A stretch of DNA of 64,000 bases, from the NCBI RefSeq assembly GCF_004011175.1, contig NZ_RQXX01000004.1:186001-250000 (forward strand), given 5' to 3'. This document shows positions 43,575 to 56,357 of the stretch, one piece after another. The first letter of the stretch is position 1; the number at the start of each line of letters is the position of its first letter. Source of the DNA: Mesobaculum littorinae. Lineage in GTDB: Bacteria; Pseudomonadota; Alphaproteobacteria; Rhodobacterales; Rhodobacteraceae. Under the pieces are notes generated by a model. The model was not told the DNA's origin and made no database searches. It saw only the letters and a program-made list of their open reading frames with translations. A program made the translations under genes and the position numbers.

Positions 43575-43836
43575 GCCACGGGAACCTAGCCCGGGCGGGC
43601 ACCGGGACCACAGGGGGGACCACAGGGCGCCGGCGCGCGACCGGACACAGGCGGGGCCGGGCGCCTGTGGCGGCCAGAGGGCGGCGCACGGCGTCACAAT
43701 CCCCATCCGTACTTATGGTCCGGGGCCTGTGGCTGTGCTAGGCCCGGTGCGCCGGACCGGTCAGGTACCGCTTTGGCCGTTGGCACGATGGCTCATATCC
43801 GCATGCTTGCGCTTGATACATTCGAGGGAGGACAAA

Positions 43837-44862
43837 ATGCAGAACTTCATTCCGACACGCCGCGCCGCAATGGCGCTGATCCTTGCGGGCACCGCGCTGA
43901 CCGGGGCGACCGGGCAGGCCGTGGCCCAGGACATCACGCTGGGCGCGCTGCGGCTGACCAGCCACTCGCCGACCTACATCGCGCTGGAACGCGGCTATTT
44001 CGAGGATGAGGGGCTCAACGTCGAACTGGCCTTCTTCGAAAGCTCCGCCGCCATGGCGGTGGGCGTTGCCGGGGGCGATCTGGATTACGGCGTCACCTCG
44101 ATCAGCGGCGGTCTGATGAACCTTGCCCAGAAGGGCGCGGTCAAGGTGATCGGCGGCGCGCTGGCCGAAGATCCCGATGTTCAGGGCCACGTGATCCTTG
44201 CCTCGAACGCCGCATTCGAGGACGGCGTGACCGAACCTGCGCAACTGGCCGGACGCAGTTTCGGCGTCACCACCGCCGGATCGTCGTTCCACTACATGCT
44301 GAGCCGAATCGCCGAGGGCGAGGGCTTCGACATCGCCGACGTGCAGATGAAGCCGCTGCAGAAGGTCGGTGCGATCATCGGCGCGCTCAGCTCGGGCCAG
44401 GTGGATGGCTGGGCGATCCAGCCCAGCATCGGCAAGCGGCTGGTCGAGGAAGGCGCGGCGCACAAGATCGGCGACCTGTCGGACTATGCGCCGGACTATC
44501 AGGTCACCGCCGTCTTCACCTCGACCGGCACCGCCGAGGGTGAGCGCGAGCAGACTGAGGCGTTCCTGCGCGCCCTGTCGCATGGCGTGGCTGACTACAA
44601 CGCCGCCTTCGTCGACGGCACCGCGGACGAGGCCGAGGTCACCGAGTTGACCGAGATCGTCCACCAGTACGTCAGCACCGATGTCGACGACGCCCGCTTT
44701 GCCAAGGACATGGCCGAAGGGTCGATGCGCATCAACGAGGGCCTGTCGCTGTCGACCTCGTCGCTGCAATCGCAGCTGGACTGGATGCAGGACGAAGGCC
44801 TGGTGAGCGGCGACATCACGCTCGAAATGCTGGTCGACCCCTCCTACGTCGAAACCAACTGA
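43837..44862 (+). CDS. ABC substrate-binding protein, nitrate/sulfonate/taurine family
   Basis: A 341-residue periplasmic protein with a signal peptide (about 1-31, ...GATGQAVAQD) and an NMT1/SsuA-like fold (ALRLTSHSPTYIALERGYFEDEGLNVELAFF). It is first in a three-gene importer. Members bind nitrate, alkanesulfonates, taurine or pyrimidine precursors; the ligand here cannot be told. GAGGGAGG lies before the ATG. The 262 bases upstream (43575-43836) contain no gene. Confidence 0.88.
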   Translation: MQNFIPTRRAAMALILAGTALTGATGQAVAQDITLGALRLTSHSPTYIALERGYFEDEGLNVELAFFESSAAMAVGVAGGDLDYGVTSISGGLMNLAQKGAVKVIGGALAEDPDVQGHVILASNAAFEDGVTEPAQLAGRSFGVTTAGSSFHYMLSRIAEGEGFDIADVQMKPLQKVGAIIGALSSGQVDGWAIQPSIGKRLVEEGAAHKIGDLSDYAPDYQVTAVFTSTGTAEGEREQTEAFLRALSHGVADYNAAFVDGTADEAEVTELTEIVHQYVSTDVDDARFAKDMAEGSMRINEGLSLSTSSLQSQLDWMQDEGLVSGDITLEMLVDPSYVETN

Positions 44863-44928
44863 CGGCGCGCGGCCGGCCCACCACCCGGGCCGGCCGCGTC
44901 CTTTCCCCCGCAGCCCCGGAGGCAGGCG

Positions 44929-45696
44929 ATGAAGATCATCGTGGACGAGCTTGGTCACAGCTACGGCGATATCGAGGTGCTGAAAGACATCTCGCTGACG
45001 ATCCCGCAGGGGCAGATCGTCTGCCTCGTCGGACCCTCGGGCTGCGGCAAGTCCACGCTTCTGCGGATGATCGGCGGGCTTGAGCGTCCGACCCGCGGCG
45101 CGGTCCTGACCTCGGGCGCGCCGCCGGCGGAATCTCTGAACCCGCTCACCTACATCTTTCAGCACTTCGCGCTGCTGCCCTGGCGCAGCGTCGCCGACAA
45201 CATCCGTCTGGTGCTGGAAGATCACAAGCTGCCGCGCAAGGAGCAGGAGGCGATCATCGCCGACGTCCTGGCGCGGACACGACTGTCCGAGTTCGGCCAT
45301 GCGCTGCCCAAGCAGCTGTCGGGCGGGATGAAGCAGCGGGTCGCCATCGCCCGCGCGCTGGCCGTGCGCCCGGCCTGCATGCTGATGGACGAACCCCTGT
45401 CCGCCCTCGACAGCCAGACGCGCGAGCTTCTGATGGAGGACTTGGTGTCGCTCTGGTCGCGCGAACCCTTCACCGCGGTCTACGTCACCCACAATCTGGC
45501 CGAGGCGGTGCGGCTGGGCCATCGGATCGTCGTGCTGTCGCGCCGCCCCGGGCGCATCCACCGCATGGTCGACATCGACATCCCCCTGGAGGAGCGGCAC
45601 CTGGGTACGCCCGAGCTTGAGGCCCACCAGGCCGAGCTGTGGGAGATGATGCGCGCCGAAGCCGAAGCCGCCGACATGGAGCTGATCGATGGATGA
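44929..45696 (+). CDS. ABC transporter ATP-binding protein, SsuB/TauB-like
   Basis: A 255-residue ATPase: Walker A GPSGCGKS (35-42), Q-loop YIFQHFALLPWRS, signature LSGGMKQR (130-137), Walker B CMLMDEP (150-156) and H-loop VYVTHNLAEAV. The order of motifs and the R-S-V after the Q-loop match the nitrate/sulfonate branch. GGAGG precedes the ATG. It overlaps the permease gene by eight bases. Confidence 0.93.
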   Translation: MKIIVDELGHSYGDIEVLKDISLTIPQGQIVCLVGPSGCGKSTLLRMIGGLERPTRGAVLTSGAPPAESLNPLTYIFQHFALLPWRSVADNIRLVLEDHKLPRKEQEAIIADVLARTRLSEFGHALPKQLSGGMKQRVAIARALAVRPACMLMDEPLSALDSQTRELLMEDLVSLWSREPFTAVYVTHNLAEAVRLGHRIVVLSRRPGRIHRMVDIDIPLEERHLGTPELEAHQAELWEMMRAEAEAADMELIDG

Positions 45697-46579
45697 CACC
45701 CGCCCCCTGCCCCGCCCCCGGTCACAGGCCGGCCCGGGCCAAACCGCCGTGGCGGGCGACGCCCCGGGTCCTGCGTCGGGTCCTGCGTCGGGCCAGACCC
45801 GGCCGGTGCGTTTTCGCGGCGGCGGGTTCCAGCCCGTGCCGGTGCGCGGTGCGGCGATCGTCGTCTTCGTGGTGCTGATCGCGCTTCTTGAGATCGGCAC
45901 GCGGACGGGGGCGATTTCGAACCTGACGATGCCGCGGCCCTCGGCGGTGGTCGAAACGCTCTGGTCGCTCGCCGCCTCGGGGCGTCTGTGGCAGCACCTT
46001 GCGCCGTCGCTGATGCGGCTGGCCGTGGGCGCCAGCCTCGGCGCCGTGACGGGCATCGCGGTCGGTACCGCGATCGGGCTTTTCAGCTACGCCCGGGCGG
46101 GGCTGGTGCCGCTGATCTCGGCGCTGTTCCCGATACCCAAGATCGCGCTCCTGCCGCTTTTCGTGATCTGGTTCGGCATCGGCGAAAGCTCGAAATACGC
46201 GCTGATCGCCTTCGGCACCTTCACCCCCACCGTCGTCGCCACCTTCGGCGCGGTCGACAGCGTCGACCGGCAGCTGATCCGCATGGGGCAGAGCTTTGGC
46301 CTGTCGTGGTGGTCGATCGTGCGCAAGATCGTGCTGCCCGGCGCCTTTCCCGGCATCCTGTCGGGGCTGCGCGTGTCGATCGCCATCGCAATCATCCTGC
46401 TGGTCGCGGCCGAGATGCTGGGCGCGCAATACGGCATCGGCTCTTACATCCTCGAGGCCGGATCGCTTTACGATCTCGAACGGCTCTTTGCCGGCGTCAC
46501 CATCCTGTCGCTGCTGGGGCTGATCGTCGGCTGGCTGATCGGCCTTGTCGAGCGCCGGTTCCTGACCTGGCGGTCCTGA
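45689..46579 (+). CDS. ABC transporter permease, SsuC/TauC-like
   Basis: A 296-residue inner-membrane permease with about six helices after a proline/alanine-rich N-terminal tail (1-45). The EAA-like cytoplasmic loop is around GQSFGLSWWSIVRKIVLPGAFPGILSGLRVS. It forms the channel with the ATPase upstream, whose gene overlaps it. The N-terminal tail is longer than usual for the family. Confidence 0.9.
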   Translation: MDDTRPLPRPRSQAGPGQTAVAGDAPGPASGPASGQTRPVRFRGGGFQPVPVRGAAIVVFVVLIALLEIGTRTGAISNLTMPRPSAVVETLWSLAASGRLWQHLAPSLMRLAVGASLGAVTGIAVGTAIGLFSYARAGLVPLISALFPIPKIALLPLFVIWFGIGESSKYALIAFGTFTPTVVATFGAVDSVDRQLIRMGQSFGLSWWSIVRKIVLPGAFPGILSGLRVSIAIAIILLVAAEMLGAQYGIGSYILEAGSLYDLERLFAGVTILSLLGLIVGWLIGLVERRFLTWRS

Positions 46580-46692: not shown

Positions 46693-48000
46693 TCATAACA
46701 AGGCCAGGGCGAACCAGGGCACGGCGATCAGCAGCGCCAACCGGATGATGTCGGCGATCCAGAAGGGCAGCACCCCGCGGAACACCGTCATCAGGTCGAC
46801 GTCGGGAATGACCGAGCGCATGACGAAGACGTTCATCCCCACGGGCGGGGTGATCAGGCTGATCTCGGTCACCACCACGACGACGATGGCGAACCAGATC
46901 AGCACGTCGTCGGGATTGCCCAGCGCCCCCGGTCCGAAATCCAGCTGCGCGACGACCGGGTAGAACACCGGCACCGTCAGAAGGATCATCGACAGGCTTT
47001 CAAAGACGCAGCCCATCACCAGATAGATCGCCACCATCAGCGCGATGACCAGCCAGGGCGACAGGTCCAGCGCGTAGATCATGTCGACCATCTCCATCGG
47101 CAGGCCGGCAAAGTTGATGAAGGTCGAGAATATCTCGGCCCCGATGATGATCGCGAAGATCATCGCCGTCGACAGCACGGTTTCACGCACCGCGCCGCGA
47201 AACCCCGCCCAGTCCAGCCCGCGGATCGCCAGCGCGAGGAGCAGCGCGAAAAGCGCGCCCATGCCGCCCGCCTCGATCGGTGTAAAAATGCCGCCGTAGA
47301 TCCCGCCCATGATGAAGAGGAACAGCGCCAGCGTGCCCAGGACACCGGTCGTGTCGCGGCGCGACATCGGGACGACCTCTTTCACCTCGGGCGCGCGCGA
47401 CGGGTCCACCCGGACGGTGACGACCACCGCCACGAGGTAGAGCACGATCCCCAGCGCCCCCGGTAGCAGCCCCGCGATAAACAGGTCGCCGATGTCGGTT
47501 TCGGTCAGCAGGCCGTAGATGATCAGGATCACCGACGGCGGGATCAGGATGCCCAGCGTGCCGCCCGCCGCGATCGCGCCCGTGGCCAGACGGTCGTCGT
47601 AGCCGAAGCGGCGCATCGGCGGCAGGGCCACCCGGCTCATCGTCGCGGCGGTGGCCAGCGACGACCCCGAGACGGCGGAAAAGCCGCCGCAGCTAAGCAC
47701 GGTGGCCAGCGCCAGCCCGCCGCGCATCCGTCCGAACAGGCGGTCGGCCCCGGCAAAGAGGCCCTGCGCGATACCTGACTGCGCCAGCACATTCCCCATG
47801 AAGATGAACAGGGGCACGACCGAAAGCGTATAGCTGAGCCCCGTTTCGAACACCGCCGTGCCGATCATCGCCCCCGCCGCATCCGGGCTGCGCAGAAGGG
47901 CAAAGCCGCCCCCGCCCACCAGCGCCATGGCGAAACCGATGGGCACCCGCAGGAAGACGAGCGCCAGCAGCACCGCGATCCCGATCAGCGAGGCGGTCAT
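46693..48000 (-). CDS. dctM: TRAP transporter large permease (DctM)
   Basis: A 435-residue membrane protein with about 12 helices. LSCGGFSAVSGSSLATAATMSRVALPPM and GGTLGILIPPSVILIIYGLLTETDIGDLF are the DctM signatures, and EISLITPPVGMNVFVM closes the second half. It moves the substrate with sodium ions. ATGA overlaps the dctQ stop. From the shared promoter design with hmgA I infer an aromatic acid substrate. Confidence 0.94.
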   Translation of the reverse strand: MTASLIGIAVLLALVFLRVPIGFAMALVGGGGFALLRSPDAAGAMIGTAVFETGLSYTLSVVPLFIFMGNVLAQSGIAQGLFAGADRLFGRMRGGLALATVLSCGGFSAVSGSSLATAATMSRVALPPMRRFGYDDRLATGAIAAGGTLGILIPPSVILIIYGLLTETDIGDLFIAGLLPGALGIVLYLVAVVVTVRVDPSRAPEVKEVVPMSRRDTTGVLGTLALFLFIMGGIYGGIFTPIEAGGMGALFALLLALAIRGLDWAGFRGAVRETVLSTAMIFAIIIGAEIFSTFINFAGLPMEMVDMIYALDLSPWLVIALMVAIYLVMGCVFESLSMILLTVPVFYPVVAQLDFGPGALGNPDDVLIWFAIVVVVVTEISLITPPVGMNVFVMRSVIPDVDLMTVFRGVLPFWIADIIRLALLIAVPWFALALL

Positions 48001-48446
48001 GACCGCGCCGCCCGGACGAAACCGAAGATCGCGGCGCAAAGGCAGCTTGCCGCACCGAAAAGCGCGAGCGGCGCAAAAGGCAGCCCCAGCGAGATCGAGC
48101 GCGTTCCGTCCTCGGCCTGTTGCAGGCCCAGCGCGCCAAGCCGCCAGGCGAAAACCAGAAGCACCCCTGCGGCGACCACTGCCGCCAGCCACAAAAGACC
48201 GCGGCCGATGCGGTCGGGCAGAAGGGTGGTCAGCAGGTCCACCTCGACATGCCCGCCGCTGCGCCCCACCAGCGGCAGCGCGGCAAAGACCAGCGCGCCC
48301 AGGATCATCTCGGTCAACTCGAAGGCGCCGGGCAGCGGCGCATCGACCAGGTAGCGGCCGATGACGTCCAGCCCGGTCACGGCCATGAGCGCGATCAGCA
48401 GCAGGCCCGAGAGGATCTCGAGCCCGCCGGAGAGAACACGCAGCAT
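47997..48446 (-). CDS. dctQ: TRAP transporter small permease (DctQ)
   Basis: A 149-residue protein with four helices; GLDVIGRYLVDAPLPGAFELTEMILGALVFAALP is the DctQ pattern. It forms the membrane unit with DctM, whose gene overlaps by four bases. Its ATG shares one base with the dctP stop. Confidence 0.92.
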   Translation of the reverse strand: MLRVLSGGLEILSGLLLIALMAVTGLDVIGRYLVDAPLPGAFELTEMILGALVFAALPLVGRSGGHVEVDLLTTLLPDRIGRGLLWLAAVVAAGVLLVFAWRLGALGLQQAEDGTRSISLGLPFAPLALFGAASCLCAAIFGFVRAARS

Positions 48447-49576
48447 CAGTCTGCCGCAGCCTCGCCGTCTTCCGTGGCCGCAGCGTCGTCAGCCGCGTCG
48501 CCGCCCGTGCTGTCGTCCGACGCGCCTCGGTCCGACGCGCCTTGCATCGATGCGCCCGGCATCGCCACGCCAGTCATCTCGCGCAGGCGCGCCAGTGCGG
48601 CCTGTCCGTCGCGATCCTCCGGCAGGCTGTCGGCCCAGGCGGCCTCGGCCTCGTCCGCCACTTCGGTGATCGCCTGAAGCACCGCGTCGTTTGCGGGGGC
48701 CGAGACGATGCCGGCGGCGTCGATCTCTTCCTGCGCGGCGGCGTCGGCGTCGTTCCACGCCTGTCCCACACGTTCGGCAAAGGCGAGCCCCGAGATCCCT
48801 TCGATCGCCTGCTGATCCTCGGGCGAGATCCGCGTCCACGCGTCTTCGTCCATGACGAGGAACCAGGTCGTGTTGTAAAGCCCGCCCGGCACGGTCAGCG
48901 AATACTTCAGGTCATCGGTCAGGTTGAACGCGGTCAGCGCCTCTTGCGTGAAGGTCGCGCCGTCGATCACCCCGCGCGACAGCTGTTCGTAGACCTCGGT
49001 CGACGAGGTGAAGACCGGCGTCGCGCCCAGCCCCTCCATCAGCGTCGCGGTATAGCCGCCGGGCACGCGGATCTTCAGCCCCTCGAAATCTCCGGGCGCC
49101 TCGATCGCGCGCCGGGCATTGTGGAACACGCCGGGCCCATGGGTGAAAAGGCCCAGGACATGCGTGCCCTCGTGATCCTCGGCCGCGCCCAGATCTTCGG
49201 TATAGACCGTGTAGAACGCCTTCGAGACGGACACGGCATCGTCGCCCAGAAACGAGAACTGGCCCACCTGACTGGCGTCGAAGCGGTCGTCCTGGCTGAA
49301 CGAATGCAGGCCGTAGGTGATGTCGGCCACGCCGTCGCGGGCCATGTCGAAATGCGCCGGCGGCGCGCCCAGCGGCGAGGCCAGCACCCGGATGCCGACG
49401 CGGCCCTCGGTCACCTCTTCGACCTCTTCGGCCCAAGGCTTCATCGCGTTGACGACGATGGGATGGCGCGGCGGCAGCCAGCTTGACATCACCAGGTCGA
49501 TATCGGCGGCGGCGGCGCCCTGCGCGCCCCCCAGGATGCCGGCCGAAACCAGGCAGATTTCCGTTAGACGACGCAT
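48446..49576 (-). CDS. dctP: TRAP transporter substrate-binding protein (DctP)
   Basis: A 376-residue periplasmic receptor with a signal peptide (about 1-24). The domain runs to about residue 335; GLKIRVPGGYTATLMEGLGATPVFTSSTEVYEQLSRGVIDGA is the DctP core, with the carboxylate-binding arginine in KIRVPG. It ends in an Asp/Ala/Ser-rich low-complexity tail of about 40 residues, partly coded by 15-base repeats. GGGAGGAG precedes the ATG. It is first in the TRAP operon, with a promoter that matches hmgA. Confidence 0.92.
   Translation of the reverse strand: MRRLTEICLVSAGILGGAQGAAAADIDLVMSSWLPPRHPIVVNAMKPWAEEVEEVTEGRVGIRVLASPLGAPPAHFDMARDGVADITYGLHSFSQDDRFDASQVGQFSFLGDDAVSVSKAFYTVYTEDLGAAEDHEGTHVLGLFTHGPGVFHNARRAIEAPGDFEGLKIRVPGGYTATLMEGLGATPVFTSSTEVYEQLSRGVIDGATFTQEALTAFNLTDDLKYSLTVPGGLYNTTWFLVMDEDAWTRISPEDQQAIEGISGLAFAERVGQAWNDADAAAQEEIDAAGIVSAPANDAVLQAITEVADEAEAAWADSLPEDRDGQAALARLREMTGVAMPGASMQGASDRGASDDSTGGDAADDAAATEDGEAAAD
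48515..48557. repeat. 15-base tandem repeats inside dctP
   Basis: GTCCGACGCGCCT occurs at 48515-48527 and 48530-48542, with a third, diverged unit to about 48557. On the coding strand they encode the series GASMQ-GASDR-GASDD at the C-terminus of DctP. Confidence 0.6.
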
Positions 49577-49610
49577 GAAGCTCCTCCCAAAGCGTGACCC
49601 TGTTCCCCGT

Positions 49611-49639
49611 GTGCTAGTGGTTGAGTTTGTAACCATCAA
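49611..49639 (-). promoter_or_regulatory. TRAP operon promoter with MarR-type operator
   Basis: Minus strand TTGATG (49634-49639), 17 bases, TAGCAC (49611-49616). The spacer holds GGTTACAAAnnCAAC, also found in the hmgA promoter. It lies in the 69 bases between dctP and marR, so the TRAP operon has its own start downstream of marR. Confidence 0.65.
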
Positions 49640-49645
49640 TCGCGG

Positions 49646-50086
49646 TCAGTCCGGGAACTTGTCGAACCCCGCCAATCTTTGCAGGCAGTCGATCAGCACC
49701 GCCCTCTCGCCCGACGACAGGTTGGCCGTCAGATCGCGGTCGTGGCGTTCGGCCACGCCCACCAGATCGTCGAACGCGCGCCGGCCCTGCGGCAGAAGCG
49801 TCAGGATCTCGCGCCGCCGGTCGGTCCCGCTTTCCCGCCCAGCGACGAACCGCTTTTCCTCCAAGGCACTGACGGCACGGCTGATCTTGGTCTTGTGCAT
49901 CTTCGCCAATCGGCAAATCTCCGAGGCCGTCATGTCGCCATAGCGGCCCAGGTGGAACAGCACCCGCCATTCGGTTCGCAACATGCCGTAGCGGTCCTTG
50001 TAGACGCGGGAGAACCCCAGGCTCGTCTCTTCCGCCGCTTGGTTCAACAGATAGGGCAGGAAGGTCCGCAGGTCGAAATCGCTCAT
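49646..50086 (-). CDS. MarR-family regulator of aromatic catabolism
   Basis: A 146-residue winged-helix regulator: dimer helices at the ends, recognition helix in [32 protein letters not shown], and a wing with [16 protein letters not shown]. This fits the branch (HmgR/HpaR/BadR-like) that answers aromatic acids. It is divergent from hmgA over 78 bases and points at the TRAP operon. Both flanking promoters carry the same operator. AGGCGG precedes the ATG. Confidence 0.9.
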
Positions 50087-50109
50087 CGCCGCCTCTCGTA
50101 TTTCCGGGC

Positions 50110-50138
50110 TTGTTGGTTACAAAAGCAACTTTTACCAC
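50110..50138 (+). promoter_or_regulatory. hmgA promoter with MarR-type operator
   Basis: TTGTTG (50110-50115), 17 bases, TACCAC (50133-50138). The spacer is GGTTACAAAAGCAAC followed by TT, and TTG/CAA arms around it give partial dyad symmetry. Transcription would begin near 50145, 20 bases before hmgA, just ahead of its GGAGGAG site. It also overlaps the likely marR start region. Confidence 0.65.
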
Positions 50139-50164
50139 GTCCGACAAGAGGTGGAGGAGCTTCC

Positions 50165-51526
50165 ATGACCGATCAGACACGGATGTCGGGACTGGTCCGG
50201 GCCGCGACCCCGATGGGCACGACCGAGGGCTACATGCCCGGTTTCGGCAACGACTTCGAAACCGAGGCGCTTCCGGGCGCGCTGCCGCAGGGCATGAACT
50301 CGCCGCAAAAGGTGAACTACGGCCTATACGGCGAACAGCTGTCGGGCACGGCCTTTACCGCGCCCAGCCATCAGAACGAACGCACATGGTGCTACCGCAT
50401 CCGCCCCAGCGTGAAGCACCAGGGCCGGTACGAGCGCATCGACCTGCCCTACTGGAAATCGGCGCCCCACATCCCGCAGGACGTGACATCGCTGGGGCAG
50501 TACCGCTGGGACGCGGTGCCCCACAGCGACGACAGCCTGACATGGCTGACCGGCATGCGCACGATGACGACGGCAGGCGACGTCAACACCGCCGCGGGCA
50601 TGGCCGCGCATATCTACCTCGTCACCCAGTCGATGCAGGACGAATACTTCTACTCGGCCGACGGCGAATTGCTGGTCGTCCCGCAGGAAGGGCGGCTGCG
50701 CTTCGCGACCGAACTGGGGATCATCGATATCGCGCCGCAGGAAATCGCGATCATCCCGCGCGGGCTGGTCTATCGGGTCGAGGTGATCGAGGGCCCGGCG
50801 CGCGGCTTCGTCTGCGAGAACTACGGGCAGAAGTTCGACCTGCCGGGCCGTGGGCCCATCGGCGCGAACTGCATGGCCAACCGGCGCGACTTCAAGACGC
50901 CGGTCGCCGCCTTCGAGGACCGCGAGGTGCCGTCGACCATCACCGTGAAGTGGTGCGGCCAGTTCCACCGCTCGGAGATCCCGCAATCGCCGCTGGACGT
51001 GGTGGCGTGGCACGGCAACTACGCGCCCTGCAAGTACGACCTGAAAACCTATTGCCCGGTGGGGGCGATCCTCTTCGACCACCCCGATCCGTCGATCTTT
51101 ACCGTGCTGACCGCGCCCTCGGGCGTCGAGGGGACGGCGAATATCGACTTCGTGCTGTTCCGGGAACGCTGGATGGTGATGGAGGATACGTTCCGCCCGC
51201 CATGGTACCACCGCAACGTCATGTCCGAGCTGATGGGCAACATCTACGGGCAGTACGACGCCAAGCCGCAGGGCTTCGTGCCCGGGGGGATGAGCCTGCA
51301 CAACTGCATGCTGCCCCACGGCCCCGACCGCGACGCGTTCGAAAAGGCGTCGAACGCCGACCTCGGCCCCGACAAGCTGGACAACACCATGTCCTTCATG
51401 TTCGAGACGCGCTTTCCCCAGCACCTGACCGAATTCGCTGCCCGCGAGGCGCCGCTGCAGGACGACTACGTCGACTGCTGGGACGGGCTGGAAAAGCATT
51501 TCGACGGGACGCCGGGGCGCAAGTAG
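50165..51526 (+). CDS. hmgA: Homogentisate 1,2-dioxygenase
   Basis: Fe(II) ring-cleaving enzyme: homogentisate + O2 to 4-maleylacetoacetate. 453 residues. Iron ligands by alignment with the human enzyme: H349 (WYHRNVMSE), E355 (MSELMGN) and H385 (LPHGPD). The opening [32 protein letters not shown]-type region (in part) is diagnostic. It is the first gene of a six-gene operon. GGAGGAG precedes the ATG. Confidence 0.97.
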
Positions 51527-51587: not shown

Positions 51588-52814
51588 TTGCTCAAGCGAA
51601 GCTGGATCGAAAGCGCGAATGATGCCGAGGGGGACTTCCCCCTCAACAACCTGCCCTACGGGGTGTTCTCGACCGCCGAAGCCGGCCCGCGCTGCGGCGT
51701 CGCCGTGGGGGACATGATCCTCGACCTCGCCCGCGCCGAAAAGGCCGGGCTGACCGGCACCCACGGCCTGTTGCAGGCGCCGGCGTGGAACAGTTTCATG
51801 GCCGAAGGCCCGCAGGCGTGGGAGGCGCTGCGCACCCGCCTGACCGAGCTTCTGGCCGAGGGCGCCGAACAGCGCGCGGCGGTCGAACCGCTTCTGGTGG
51901 CGATGTCCGGCGCGCGGATGCACCTGCCGATCGAGGTCGCGGAATACACCGATTTCTATGCCTCGCGCCAGCATGCCACCAACGTGGGCACCATGTTCCG
52001 CGGGGCCGAGAATGCGCTGCCGCCCAACTGGCTGCACATCCCCATCGGCTATAACGGCCGCGCCTCGACCGTCGTCGTGTCGGACACCGAGGTGCGCCGC
52101 CCGGTGGGCCAGACCCGGGCCAAGCACGCCGAAATGCCGTCCTTCGGCCCCTGCAAGCGGCTGGATATCGAGCTTGAGATCGGCGCAATCGTCGGCACGC
52201 CGTCGCGGATGGGCGAGCCCGTCACAACCGCGCAGGCACAAGAGATGATCTTTGGCTACGTGCTGCTGAACGACTGGTCGGCGCGCGATCTGCAGGCCTG
52301 GGAATACCAGCCGCTGGGCCCGTTTCAGGCCAAGGCCTTCGCCACCTCGATCAGCCCGTGGATCGTCACGCGCGCGGCATTGGCGCCCTTTGCCGTGCCC
52401 GAGCCCGAGCGCGAGGTGCCGCTGCTGCCCTACCTGCGCACCGATTTCCCCGGCAACTACGACGTGGACCTGTCGGTCGAGATGAACGGCCATACCGTCA
52501 GCCGCACCAACATGCAGCGGCTCTACTATTCCGCAGCCCAGCAGCTGGCGCACCACGCCTCGTCGGGCTGCGCAATGCGGACCGGCGATCTTCTGGGCTC
52601 GGGCACGATTTCGGGCGACACGCCGGACGCCTGCGGCTCGCTCCTTGAAATGACGTGGGGCGGCCAGACCCCGCTCGACCTGGGCGGCGAGAGCCGGACC
52701 TTCATCCAGGACGGCGACATCCTGACGCTCAAGGGGCACGCACAGGGCGATGGCTACCGCGTGGGCTTCGGCGCCTGCACCGGCCGCATCCTGCCCGCCC
52801 CCGACTTTCCCTGA
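51588..52814 (+). CDS. fahA: Fumarylacetoacetase
   Basis: Splits 4-fumarylacetoacetate to fumarate and acetoacetate, the last step of the pathway. 408 residues: an N-terminal SH3-like domain (about 1-115) and the FAH barrel with the metal-binding DFYASRQHATNVGTMFRG, IELEIGAIVG and VLLNDWSARDLQAWEYQPLGPF segments. The start is the rare TTG at 51588, supported by GGGAGG six bases upstream and by the lack of a better start; 61 bases follow hmgA. Confidence 0.96.
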   Translation: MLKRSWIESANDAEGDFPLNNLPYGVFSTAEAGPRCGVAVGDMILDLARAEKAGLTGTHGLLQAPAWNSFMAEGPQAWEALRTRLTELLAEGAEQRAAVEPLLVAMSGARMHLPIEVAEYTDFYASRQHATNVGTMFRGAENALPPNWLHIPIGYNGRASTVVVSDTEVRRPVGQTRAKHAEMPSFGPCKRLDIELEIGAIVGTPSRMGEPVTTAQAQEMIFGYVLLNDWSARDLQAWEYQPLGPFQAKAFATSISPWIVTRAALAPFAVPEPEREVPLLPYLRTDFPGNYDVDLSVEMNGHTVSRTNMQRLYYSAAQQLAHHASSGCAMRTGDLLGSGTISGDTPDACGSLLEMTWGGQTPLDLGGESRTFIQDGDILTLKGHAQGDGYRVGFGACTGRILPAPDFP

Positions 52815-52831: not shown

Positions 52832-53782
52832 ATGGCCAAGGCATTCGCATCCGCCGGCGACATGGCGGACAAGAAGATCAGCTTTACCGAGGTGGGTGAC
52901 GGGCTCTGGGCCTTCACTGCCGAGGGCGATCCGAACTCGGGCGTGATCATCGGCGACGACAGCGTGATGATCGTCGAGGCGCAGGCCACCCCGCGCCTGG
53001 CCGAGATGGTGATCGAGAAGGTCCGCGAGGTGACCGACAAGCCGATCACCCATCTCGCCCTCACACACTACCACGCGGTCCGCGTGCTGGGCGCCAGCGC
53101 CTACGGCGCGCGCGAGGTCATCATGTCCGACGTCGCGCAGGCCATGGTGGCCGAACGCGGGCAAGAGGACTGGGACAGCGAATTCGACCGCTTCCCCCGC
53201 CTGTTCCAGGGGCACGAAAGCATCCCCGGCCTCACGTGGCCCACGACGACCTTCAGCGACCGGATGTCGGTCTACCTGGGCAAGCGCCGGATCGACCTGA
53301 TGAAGCTGGGCCGCGCCCACACGGCGGGCGACATCGTGATCCACGTGCCCGACCAGAATGTCATGTTCACCGGCGATATCGTCGAATACCACTCGGCCTG
53401 CTACTGCGGCGACGGGCATTACGCGGACTGGCCCGCGACGGTCGACCGCATCCGGGCCTTCGACCTCGACGCCATCGCGCCGGGGCGAGGCGACGCGCTG
53501 GTCGGCCGCGACCAGGTCAACGCCGCGCTGGATGCGACCTCGGACTTCGTGACCTCGACCTTCGACGCGGTGCGCCGGGTGGCGGTGCGCGGCGGGTCGC
53601 TGCAGGACGCCATGGCCCATGTGCGCGAGGTCTGCGACCCGAGGTTCGCCGATTACGCCATCTACGAACACTGCCTGCCCTTCAACGTGGCCCGCGCCTA
53701 TGACGAGGCGCGCGGCATCGACACCCCGCGCGTCTGGACCGCCGCACGGGACAAGGAGATGTGGGAGGCCCTGCAGGGCTGA
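52832..53782 (+). CDS. Metallo-beta-lactamase-fold hydrolase, site-2-deficient
   Basis: A 316-residue MBL-fold protein 17 bases after fahA, with AAGGAGG before the ATG. Site-1 ligands are intact: H79 and H81 in THYHAVR and H163 in GRAHTAGD, plus D182 in FTGDIV. The site-2 residues are lost: the usual Asp and His of HxHxDH are V83 and R84, and the late PGHG histidine is R219 in APGRGD. It should bind one metal at most. A role in homogentisate breakdown, perhaps lactone or thioester hydrolysis, is inferred only from position. Confidence 0.8.
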   Translation: MAKAFASAGDMADKKISFTEVGDGLWAFTAEGDPNSGVIIGDDSVMIVEAQATPRLAEMVIEKVREVTDKPITHLALTHYHAVRVLGASAYGAREVIMSDVAQAMVAERGQEDWDSEFDRFPRLFQGHESIPGLTWPTTTFSDRMSVYLGKRRIDLMKLGRAHTAGDIVIHVPDQNVMFTGDIVEYHSACYCGDGHYADWPATVDRIRAFDLDAIAPGRGDALVGRDQVNAALDATSDFVTSTFDAVRRVAVRGGSLQDAMAHVREVCDPRFADYAIYEHCLPFNVARAYDEARGIDTPRVWTAARDKEMWEALQG

Positions 53783-53935: not shown

Positions 53936-55537
53936 GTGCTGGACGACGACACGCAGATGCGACAGCTTTACCCCTATGCCCGCTGCCCCGACCAGGCGGC
54001 GGGAACCGTCGCCCATCATCCGGCGGTGGTGATCGGCGGCGGCCCCATCGGGCTGGCGCTTGCGCTGGATCTGGGGCTGCAGGGGGTCCCGACCCTTGTC
54101 CTCGACGATGACGAGGGGGCGGGCGAAGGCAGCCGGGCCATCTGCTTTTCCAAGCGCACGCTGGAGATCTGCGACCGGCTGGGCTGTGGCGACGCGATGG
54201 TCGACAAGGGCGTCGTGTGGAATCTGGGCAAGGTCTACCACGGGGCGGACAAGGTATTCGATTTCAACCTGCTGCCCGAGGGCGGCCACCGCCGGCCCGC
54301 CTTCATCAACCTGCAGCAGCCCTATTTCGAAACCTACCTCGTCGCCCGCATCCGTGAGGCCATCGCCGAGGGCGCGCCCATCGAGATCCGCGGCCGGAAC
54401 CGGGTCGAGGGGCTTGAGGTGCGTGACGACGGCGCCGGGCTGACCGTGGCCACCCCCGACGGGCCCTACGCCCTGTCCGCCGATTGGGTGCTGGCCTGCG
54501 ACGGCGCAAGATCCCCCACCCGCAAGGCGCTGGGGCTGGGGTTCGAGGGCAAGGTGTTCCGCGACAGCTTCCTGATCGCCGACGTGAAGATGACCGCCGA
54601 TTTCCCGACCGAGCGGCGGTTCTGGTTCGAGCCGCCGTTTCGCGAGGCCGGAGATTCCGCGCTGCTGCACAAGCAGCCCGACGATATTTGGCGGATCGAT
54701 TTCCAGATCGGCTGGGACGTCGACCGCGAGGCCGAGCTGCGTCCCGAGCGGATCCGCGCCCGCATCGACCAAATGCTGCCCGGCGCGGATTACGAGCTTG
54801 TCTGGACCTCGATCTACACCTTCCAGTGCCGCCGGATGCAGTCGTTCCGGCACGGCCGGGTCCTGTTCGTGGGCGACAGCGCGCACCAGGTGTCGCCCTT
54901 CGGGGCGCGCGGCGCCAACGGCGGGATGCAGGATGCCGACAACCTGGGGTGGAAGCTGGCGATGGTGATGCAGGGGGCCGCGCCGGAAACGCTGATCGAC
55001 AGCTACGATGACGAACGGATCTTCGCGACGGACGAGAACATCCGCCATTCGACCCGGTCGACCGACTTCATCACCCCGAAATCCGACATCAGCCGGGTGT
55101 TCCGCGATGCGGTGCTGCACCTGTCGCGCCGGCACGACTTTGCCCGCCCCTTCGTGAACTCGGGCCGCCTGTCTGCACCGGCGATCTACGACGGATCGCC
55201 ACTCAATTCCCCCGATGCCTTGCCGCAGGGCCCCGCCGGGGCGCGGCCCGGGGCCCCCTGCCCCGACGCGCCGCTGAAGGGCGGCTACCTGCTTGACCAC
55301 CTGCGCGGCGGCTTCGTGCTTCTGGCCCTGGGCCAGACCGCGCCCGAGGGCACCGGCCTTGCCACCCTGTCGCTGCCCGATCCCGGGGATGATCTGCGCA
55401 CCCGCTACATGGGCGACCATGACCGCGCGCTCTACCTGCTGCGGCCCGACCAGCACGTCGCGGCCCGGTGGGCGACCGCCACAGCCGACGACATCACCGC
55501 GGCCCTGGACCGCGCCACCGGAAGGGCCGCCGCATGA
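53936..55537 (+). CDS. FAD-dependent aromatic hydroxylase (PHBH/MhpA-like)
   Basis: A 533-residue class A flavoprotein monooxygenase. FAD motif VVIGGGPIGLALAL at 31-44; the DG-type segment VLACDGARSPTRKALGL; the GD motif FVGDSAHQVSPFGARGANGGMQDADNL; and a C-terminal thioredoxin-like domain (about 420-533). It resembles 3-(3-hydroxyphenyl)propionate hydroxylase. Within a homogentisate operon it may make homogentisate from a hydroxyphenylacetate. The start is GTG with GGAGGAG upstream. 153 bases separate it from the MBL gene; it overlaps DUF2783 by four. Confidence 0.88.
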   Translation: MLDDDTQMRQLYPYARCPDQAAGTVAHHPAVVIGGGPIGLALALDLGLQGVPTLVLDDDEGAGEGSRAICFSKRTLEICDRLGCGDAMVDKGVVWNLGKVYHGADKVFDFNLLPEGGHRRPAFINLQQPYFETYLVARIREAIAEGAPIEIRGRNRVEGLEVRDDGAGLTVATPDGPYALSADWVLACDGARSPTRKALGLGFEGKVFRDSFLIADVKMTADFPTERRFWFEPPFREAGDSALLHKQPDDIWRIDFQIGWDVDREAELRPERIRARIDQMLPGADYELVWTSIYTFQCRRMQSFRHGRVLFVGDSAHQVSPFGARGANGGMQDADNLGWKLAMVMQGAAPETLIDSYDDERIFATDENIRHSTRSTDFITPKSDISRVFRDAVLHLSRRHDFARPFVNSGRLSAPAIYDGSPLNSPDALPQGPAGARPGAPCPDAPLKGGYLLDHLRGGFVLLALGQTAPEGTGLATLSLPDPGDDLRTRYMGDHDRALYLLRPDQHVAARWATATADDITAALDRATGRAAA

Positions 55538-55722
55538 CCGCGCTTGTCACCCACCGCAACCTCGACCGGCCCGATGATGTCTACGACCTGCTTCTGACCG
55601 CGCACGAGGGGCTGTCGCCCGAGGAAAGCAGCGCGCTGAATGCCCGGCTGATCCTGACCTTGTGCAACCACGTGGGCGATGTCCGCATCATCCGCGCGGC
55701 GCTCGAAGTGGCCCGGGAATGA
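55534..55722 (+). CDS. DUF2783 protein
   Basis: A 62-residue soluble protein (NLDRPDDVYDLLLTAHEGLSPEES...), of the DUF2783 family as I recall it. It overlaps the hydroxylase gene upstream (ATGA) and maiA downstream (ATGA) by four bases each. This tight fit suggests a small partner of the hydroxylase, but no function is established. Confidence 0.8.
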   Translation: MTALVTHRNLDRPDDVYDLLLTAHEGLSPEESSALNARLILTLCNHVGDVRIIRAALEVARE

Positions 55723-56357
55723 CCGTGACGCTTTACGACTACTGGCGGTCCTCGGCCAGCTACCGTGTGCGCATCGCGCTGAACCTCGCGGGCCTCGCCT
55801 ATCGCGCGGTGCCGGTGGACCTGCTGGCGGGCGACCAGTCGGCGGCGGATCATGTCGCGCGGAACCCGCAGGGCTTCGTGCCGGTGCTCGACATCGACGG
55901 GCTGCGGCTGACCCAGTCGCTGGCGATCCTCGAATACCTGGACGAAACGCGGAACCTGGGGCTTCTCCCCCCGGACCCCGCGGGCCGGGCACGGGTGCGG
56001 GCGCTGGCGCAGGTCATCGCCGCCGACACGCATCCCGTCTGCAACCCTTCCGTCATGGCCGAGGTGGTGCGCCTGGCCGCCCCTTCCGATCCCGCAGAGC
56101 TGCGGCAGGGCTGGCAGCGCCATTTCATCCGGCGCGGGCTGGCCGCGGTGGAGACCCTGCTCGACACGCCCGAAACGGGCCGCCATTGCCACGGCGATGC
56201 CCTGACGCTGGCCGATCTCTGCCTCGTGCCGCAGGTCTACAACGCCCGCCGCTGGAAGGTGCCGCTGGACGACCTGCCCCGCGTCCGCCGTGCCGCCGAG
56301 GCCGCCGAGGCGCTCGCCCCGGTTCGCGACGCCGCGCCCGAGCGGCATCGCCCCTGA
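55719..56357 (+). CDS. maiA: Maleylacetoacetate isomerase
   Basis: Glutathione-dependent cis-trans isomerase: 4-maleylacetoacetate to 4-fumarylacetoacetate (zeta-class GST). 212 residues. The zeta motif SSASYRVRIAL is at 11-21 and NPQGFVPVLDIDGLRLTQSLAILEYLDE follows; QRHFIRRGLAAVE and ALTLADLCLVPQVYNARRWKV are in the C-terminal domain. Last gene of the operon, with a four-base overlap. Confidence 0.95.
   Translation: MTVTLYDYWRSSASYRVRIALNLAGLAYRAVPVDLLAGDQSAADHVARNPQGFVPVLDIDGLRLTQSLAILEYLDETRNLGLLPPDPAGRARVRALAQVIAADTHPVCNPSVMAEVVRLAAPSDPAELRQGWQRHFIRRGLAAVETLLDTPETGRHCHGDALTLADLCLVPQVYNARRWKVPLDDLPRVRRAAEAAEALAPVRDAAPERHRP

Follow-up and report, generated by a model that had tools for sequence, protein, structure and literature searches.

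Two operons of Mesobaculum littorinae, one for a TRAP transporter (dctPQM) and one for homogentisate breakdown, carry the same 25-bp inverted-repeat element ahead of their first genes, and comparison with related genomes makes it likely that the MarR-family regulator encoded between the two sites represses both operons until an acid of the pathway releases it. In the window analysed here (a stretch of 64,000 nucleotides from contig NZ_RQXX01000004.1), the order is dctM-dctQ-dctP on the minus strand, element, marR on the minus strand, element, and hmgA-fahA-MBL-FAD hydroxylase-maiA on the plus strand (Table 1). The matches of hmgA, fahA and maiA all lie above curated cut-offs, as expected of a homogentisate pathway operon, and all three TRAP subunits, DctP, DctQ and DctM, are present. 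Two marks of a local MarR-type catabolic regulon are found, in that marR lies beside its presumed targets and the inverted-repeat element at the target promoters is kept in relatives.

Table 1. Features of the dctPQM-marR-hmgA locus, numbered from the first base of the window.
Feature	Position	Strand	Basis
dctM, TRAP large permease	46693..48000	-	TIGR00786, 290.2 bits (cut-off 268.45)
dctQ, TRAP small permease	47997..48446	-	PF04290
dctP, TRAP solute-binding protein (SBP), aromatic-acid type	48446..49576	-	PF03480; solved-chain and model matches
Proposed -10 of dctP, TAGCAC	49611..49616	-	only TA kept in relatives
25-bp promoter/operator element of dctPQM, TTGATGGTTACAAACTCAACCACTA	49615..49639	-	exact match
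Proposed MarR operator of dctP, perfect 18-bp inverted repeat TGGTT-N8-AACCA	49618..49635	-	direct reading
marR, MarR-family regulator, divergent from hmgA	49646..50086	-	Pfam MarR_2 (PF12802), 2.2e-14
25-bp promoter/operator element of the hmgA operon, TTGTTGGTTACAAAAGCAACTTTTA	50110..50134	+	pattern matches
Proposed MarR operator of hmgA, 18-bp near-palindrome TGGTT-N8-AACTT	50114..50131	+	direct reading
hmgA, homogentisate 1,2-dioxygenase	50165..51526	+	TIGR01015, 648.7 bits (cut-off 510.75)
fahA, fumarylacetoacetase	51588..52814	+	TIGR01266, 517.5 bits (cut-off 375.3)
MBL-fold hydrolase	52832..53782	+	PF00753
FAD-dependent aromatic hydroxylase (PRK08132 type)	53936..55537	+	NF006002, 737.4 bits (cut-off 416)
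maiA, maleylacetoacetate isomerase	55719..56357	+	TIGR01262, 238.8 bits (cut-off 171.05)

The first-pass annotation had described two similar 29-mers, at 49611-49639 on the minus strand (TTGATGGTTACAAACTCAACCACTAGCAC) and at 50110-50138 on the plus strand (TTGTTGGTTACAAAAGCAACTTTTACCAC), with 22 of 30 bases identical, a shared run of 10 bases (TGGTTACAAA) and marR between them. Direct reading of the window reproduced the coordinates, the strands and both counts exactly, and marR is indeed flanked by the two elements. No other place in the window matches the 29-mers at up to three mismatches, and 100 shuffles gave none; genome-wide (3,969,393 bases; 3.97 Mb), GGTTACAAANNCAAC with one mismatch allowed is confined to the dctP and hmgA sites, and so is the longer 25-mer at the same tolerance. 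The likeness of the two sites is exact and beyond chance, the shuffles and the genome-wide uniqueness ruling out a fortuitous resemblance.

The same annotation had read both sites as promoters of the layout TTGnTG, 17 bases, TAnCAC. The sites are there, but of the proposed -10 hexamer relatives conserve no more than the leading TA, and a scan of positions 49400-50300 found no sigma-70 consensus promoter, neither site reaching its threshold. A promoter with TTG at -35, TA at -10 and 17 bp between them is a possible reading, and the element is best described, from its sequence, as a -35-like TTG, an inverted repeat and a -10-like TA within 25 bp. Comparison of the 200 bp ahead of marR in the window and 120 further loci (n = 121) gave a 25-bp consensus footprint, TTGTTAGTTACAAAATCAACTATTA, around an 18-bp inverted repeat, TAGTT-N8-AACTA. 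The 25-mer TTGNTRGTTACANNNNCAACNNNTA occurs at up to two mismatches ahead of marR in 93 of the 121 loci (the window included; 86 exact); in 72 of the 93, the distance between its 5' end and the marR start is 22-28 bp. Across the 121 loci, 21 of the 25 element columns exceed 1 bit, an information content that selection inflates in the columns set by the search pattern, and no flanking column shown rises above 0.64 bit; columns 4, 13, 14 and 22, which were free in the pattern, also exceed 1 bit.

The element and the MarR orthologue occur together across the family. MarR matches at E 1e-20 or better were found at 132 places in 130 of 295 sampled family genomes; 11 low-identity places were left out and 120 loci compared with the window, and marR is divergent from hmgA in many of them. 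The 25-mer, at up to one mismatch, was found at 114 places in 98 of the 295 genomes (a reversed control pattern gave 6 in all). By the first-pass annotation's own yardstick, loss of the pattern ahead of hmgA where marR is kept would have refuted the MarR reading; we found it instead in 93 of the 106 genomes with a strong MarR orthologue (E 1e-30 or better) compared to 5 of the 189 others (2 of 24 with a weaker MarR match, 3 of 165 without), an association with a Fisher p of about 2e-55, uncorrected for the ancestry common to the genomes.

The two-site layout itself recurs outside the window. An alignment scan of GTDB species genomes with DctP returned 239 relatives, and analysis of the best 80 of these 239 revealed hmgA-marR-dctPQM, arranged as in the window, in Yoonia vestfoldensis, Palleronia marisminoris, Tropicimonas sp. 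IMCC34011 and Oceaniovalibus guishaninsula. All four carry the element at both promoters, with 0 to 2 mismatches, as the first-pass annotation had proposed to look for. In an alignment of the marR-dctP gap from eight loci, 12 of 15 invariant columns fall inside the element; one cluster (G263) has the TRAP genes and lacks the element. Other versions of the pair, in the same layout, accompany other MarR proteins: in three Granulosicoccus loci, whose MarR is 31-33% identical, each of the two promoters has TTGACA and then GTTGCA-N2-TGCAAC, and two Kiloniellales MAGs (MarR 38% identical) have a third element type that is common to both promoters, with a gene divergent from marR that is only 24% identical to HmgA. 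The Granulosicoccus loci count as one lineage, as do the Kiloniellales MAGs, so that both promoters carry their own common element in two lineages with another MarR, in keeping with the MarR regulon first suggested.

Blind searches for the best 25-mer common to the two promoters gave the same picture, beating all 100 simple base shuffles in 8 of 10 cases. Two of 100 shuffles were as good in the ninth (L276), and 82 of 100 in the tenth (L278), which failed because its second site (2 mismatches) lies outside the gap as defined. The 19 copies of the palindrome GTTGCANNTGCAAC are spread over 13 of the best 80 DctP loci; none is farther than 170 bp from a match to marR, hmgA, fahA, mbl or dctP, and a single base-shuffled set contained no copy. 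In the recognition-helix region, HKTK(I/V)SR is found in 8 of 8 MarR proteins whose clusters carry the first operator type, and different residues take its place in eight others.

These data bear on the alternative that a different regulator uses the shared element as its operator and that marR is merely a neighbour. In its favour, one genome (G013) carries an exact element ahead of hmgA (C1:2787787, L260) and has no MarR match at E 1e-8, and no element at up to one mismatch was found in 13 of the 106 genomes with a strong MarR, 7 of which show nothing even at four mismatches in the examined locus. However, the element tracks the MarR orthologue, an inverted repeat is what a dimeric MarR would be expected to bind, and the element differs where MarR differs, the recognition-helix region included. 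We therefore regard control by another protein as very unlikely. Among solved structures, none identifies the window MarR (best match 2fa5, E 3.8e-21).

Copies of the element away from marR point to the wider set of genes that it may serve. No more than 150 bp separate 92 of the 114 places from a marR orthologue downstream, and the other 22 include the dctP site of the window. The gene context was read for 20 of the remaining 21 (G059 was left out), and 19 of the 21 stand ahead of a TRAP dctP (7 sites), a gene of homogentisate breakdown or of the FAH family (8 sites) or a VOC gene (4 sites). The seven TRAP dctP genes are not orthologous to dctP of the window and are not adjacent to marR. Five are of one type (L242, L244, L245, L249, L250), 30-33% identical to the window DctP, and two are TarP-like (L251, L256), their ATG lying 112 and 135 bp downstream of the element, so that, the window's own included, the same proposed operator stands ahead of three TRAP types. 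Within the same 8-kb locus as each of the first five (5/5) lies paaG, of the phenylacetate route. The homogentisate sites precede hmgA (L255, L257, L259, L260), the MBL gene (L258), maiA (L246 and L254, the latter a short reading frame) and, in L253, a FAH-family gene followed by maiA and then a TRAP dctP. The VOC-family gene directly follows the site in L243 (3505-4044), L247, L248 and L252, and ABC-transporter genes were accordingly dropped as targets at these sites. One extra site (L261, in G086) has no fitting gene. In four genomes (G107, G139, G185, G188) the homogentisate genes are not next to marR and it is their promoters that carry the element, with a partial copy also at marR in G188.

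Such separate sites also speak to a second alternative, a single looped repression complex over marR and hmgA in which the dctP-side site would be an auxiliary operator. The spacing of the sites, 495 bp in the window and 491, 493, 493 and 508 bp in relatives, is similar enough to suit a loop, but it extends to 557-558 bp in Granulosicoccus, the element precedes a TRAP dctP away from marR in seven other genomes, and the dctP-side site occupies a promoter position ahead of dctP. With sites apart from marR and a spacing that ranges from 491 to 558 bp, we rejected looping as the main role and consider it highly improbable.

Next, we asked what the transporter carries. Using gene linkage, which is independent of the motif, we found at least one of the five cluster genes within 10 kb in 79 of the best 80 DctP-relative loci (hmgA in 50, fahA in 67, maiA in 70, the MBL gene in 69 and the FAD hydroxylase in 69), and hmgA or fahA within this distance in 67 of the 80, with some contigs extending less than 10 kb on each side; the yardstick is arithmetic only, 20 kb being about 0.5% of a 4-Mb genome. 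Among the 295 sampled genomes, 35 others have a DctP match, of which the 14 at 54% identity or more were taken and the 21 at 35-40% left out; 13 of the 14, several of which are also among the best 80, have hmgA, fahA or maiA as neighbours, and the 14th (G280) has only relatives of the MBL and FAD-hydroxylase genes nearby. The link to homogentisate degradation that had been proposed from the promoters is thus borne out without them, and the importer very probably feeds homogentisate breakdown, since several relatives keep the pairing of the two operons under a common element.

The solute-binding protein points the same way. The closest solved chain to the window DctP is 4p56 (E 6.9e-71), whose ligand is presumably mandelate, and a structural model computed for the window protein together with 30 relatives (mean pLDDT 85.7) superimposes on it with a Z of 40.6. 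Proteins titled as aromatic-acid-specific and TarP proteins, whose titles name cinnamate, coumarate, caffeate, ferulate and 4-hydroxyphenylacetate, follow at Z 34.6-37.7, as do 5im2 and 4nap, for which the available part of the title stops before the ligand. Among solved structures, the window protein is therefore nearest to aromatic-acid SBPs, and the class of substrate can in part be read off the transporter, so that the first-pass statement to the contrary was too strong. The available text of PMC5812351 gives no ligand for 4p56.

The remaining possibility for the transporter is a general dicarboxylate importer that stands beside the homogentisate operon by chance. The DctP annotation is generic, and one of the 80 loci (L341) has TRAP genes with no cluster gene within 10 kb, both of which would suit it; against it stand the 79 loci that do carry cluster genes, the neighbourhoods of the 14 closer relatives and the grouping of the SBP with aromatic-acid proteins. 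On this SBP likeness and pathway linkage we rejected a generic dicarboxylate TRAP, which we judge very unlikely. Considering the type of SBP, the presence of paaG near the alternative TRAP and the FAD hydroxylase, we infer that a hydroxyphenylacetate-type acid, or else homogentisate itself, is the most likely substrate.

Taken together, the comparisons favour regulation of both operons by MarR as follows. A MarR dimer would bind the 18-bp inverted repeat, which lies between a -35-like TTG and a -10-like TA, and thereby block RNA polymerase at the dctP and hmgA promoters. The near-palindrome at the hmgA site is possibly an operator common to hmgA and marR, and marR is probably autoregulated, as this element is also upstream of marR, at 23 bp from its start codon. 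An aromatic acid, homogentisate or a hydroxyphenylacetate-type precursor, would release the repressor, homogentisate being suggested as inducer by analogy with HmgR of P. putida; import and breakdown would thus be induced together, the dctPQM importer and the hmgA-fahA-MBL-FAD hydroxylase-maiA operon being switched on jointly. The TRAP system would then import an aryl carboxylic acid that is funnelled, probably via the FAD hydroxylase, into homogentisate, which makes this hydroxylase a candidate for the homogentisate-forming enzyme. The tyrosine step falls outside the two-site set, because the single 4HPPD match in the genome is on a different contig (C21:15114-16139) and there is no third copy of the element in the genome. 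Beyond dctM lie ABC transporter genes (binding protein, ATPase and permease; ~43800-46579, plus strand) that are nitrate/sulfonate/taurine-like by eye, and the MarR element is absent there.

The most interesting part of the module is its enzymes without an assigned step. The MBL-fold hydrolase is kept in many homogentisate clusters, its best NCBIfam matches (quinoprotein relay, B2 beta-lactamase) fall far under their cut-offs, and we know of no step in the homogentisate pathway that needs such an enzyme. The VOC-family protein (~180 aa), found behind the element in four genomes and within TRAP/homogentisate clusters in others, has relatives in 28 of the best 80 DctP loci, and its closest solved chain is 9u42, 'Glyoxalase' (E 3.1e-82); a search of the window's own genome returned none at E 1e-10, an empty result that alone is no proof. 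For the substrates of the FAD hydroxylase and the VOC protein, the nearest solved structures carry general names only. The MBL hydrolase, the FAD hydroxylase and the VOC protein may point to a so far undescribed path leading to homogentisate. We tentatively extend this to an undescribed upper route, made up of the TRAP system, the MBL hydrolase, the PRK08132-type FAD hydroxylase and, in many relatives, the VOC protein, that would be held together by MarR regulators whose operators at the module's promoters changed in step in separate lineages; if true, it would import an aryl carboxylic acid and convert it to homogentisate. In more immediate terms, an anonymous TRAP system becomes a testable importer of an aromatic acid degraded via homogentisate, a 25-bp element tied to one group of MarR proteins offers a handle for finding peripheral enzymes and transporters family-wide, and the two operators attributed to one MarR, which appear to change together in separate lineages, form a natural series.

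How does this system compare with those already known? Like the window DctP, the TarPQM and other aromatic-acid TRAP SBPs, as far as the available text describes them (PMC3610893), and 4p56 (Bordetella bronchiseptica BB2442) share its fold and are nearest by sequence; unlike them, it is a protein with 38% (4p56) or 27-28% identity over the structure alignment, a distance at which the ligand is not fixed. A TRAP operon beside a pca cluster has been reported for 4-hydroxybenzoate in Roseovarius, in an account whose available part does not mention homogentisate (PMC12442348). Among the matches listed in our literature searches, which mostly did not extend to subscription papers, no account of such a regulon or transporter in Rhodobacteraceae was found. 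The MarR regulator resembles HpaR, the MarR-family protein of homoprotocatechuate degradation, in family and in its tie to aromatic catabolism, and we rejected its identity with HpaR (TIGR02337, 39.5 bits compared to a cut-off of 121.2). In Pseudomonas putida, HmgR represses hmgABC with homogentisate as the anti-repressor; it is, like the proposed MarR, a repressor of a homogentisate operon, but it belongs to the IclR family and no TRAP operon is mentioned with it in the part of the source available (PMC5343134). A counterpart from the MarR family, compared by description, is HmgS, a MarR-family regulator predicted to control hmgAB in Alteromonadales/Pseudoalteromonadales (three gammaproteobacterial genomes); it differs from the window protein in being gammaproteobacterial and in that the same partial text mentions no TRAP transporter (PMC5343134). 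We conclude that the paired element of the window is real and the predicted regulon well supported by comparison, and that it joins a few Alteromonadales in which MarR control of homogentisate genes had already been predicted.
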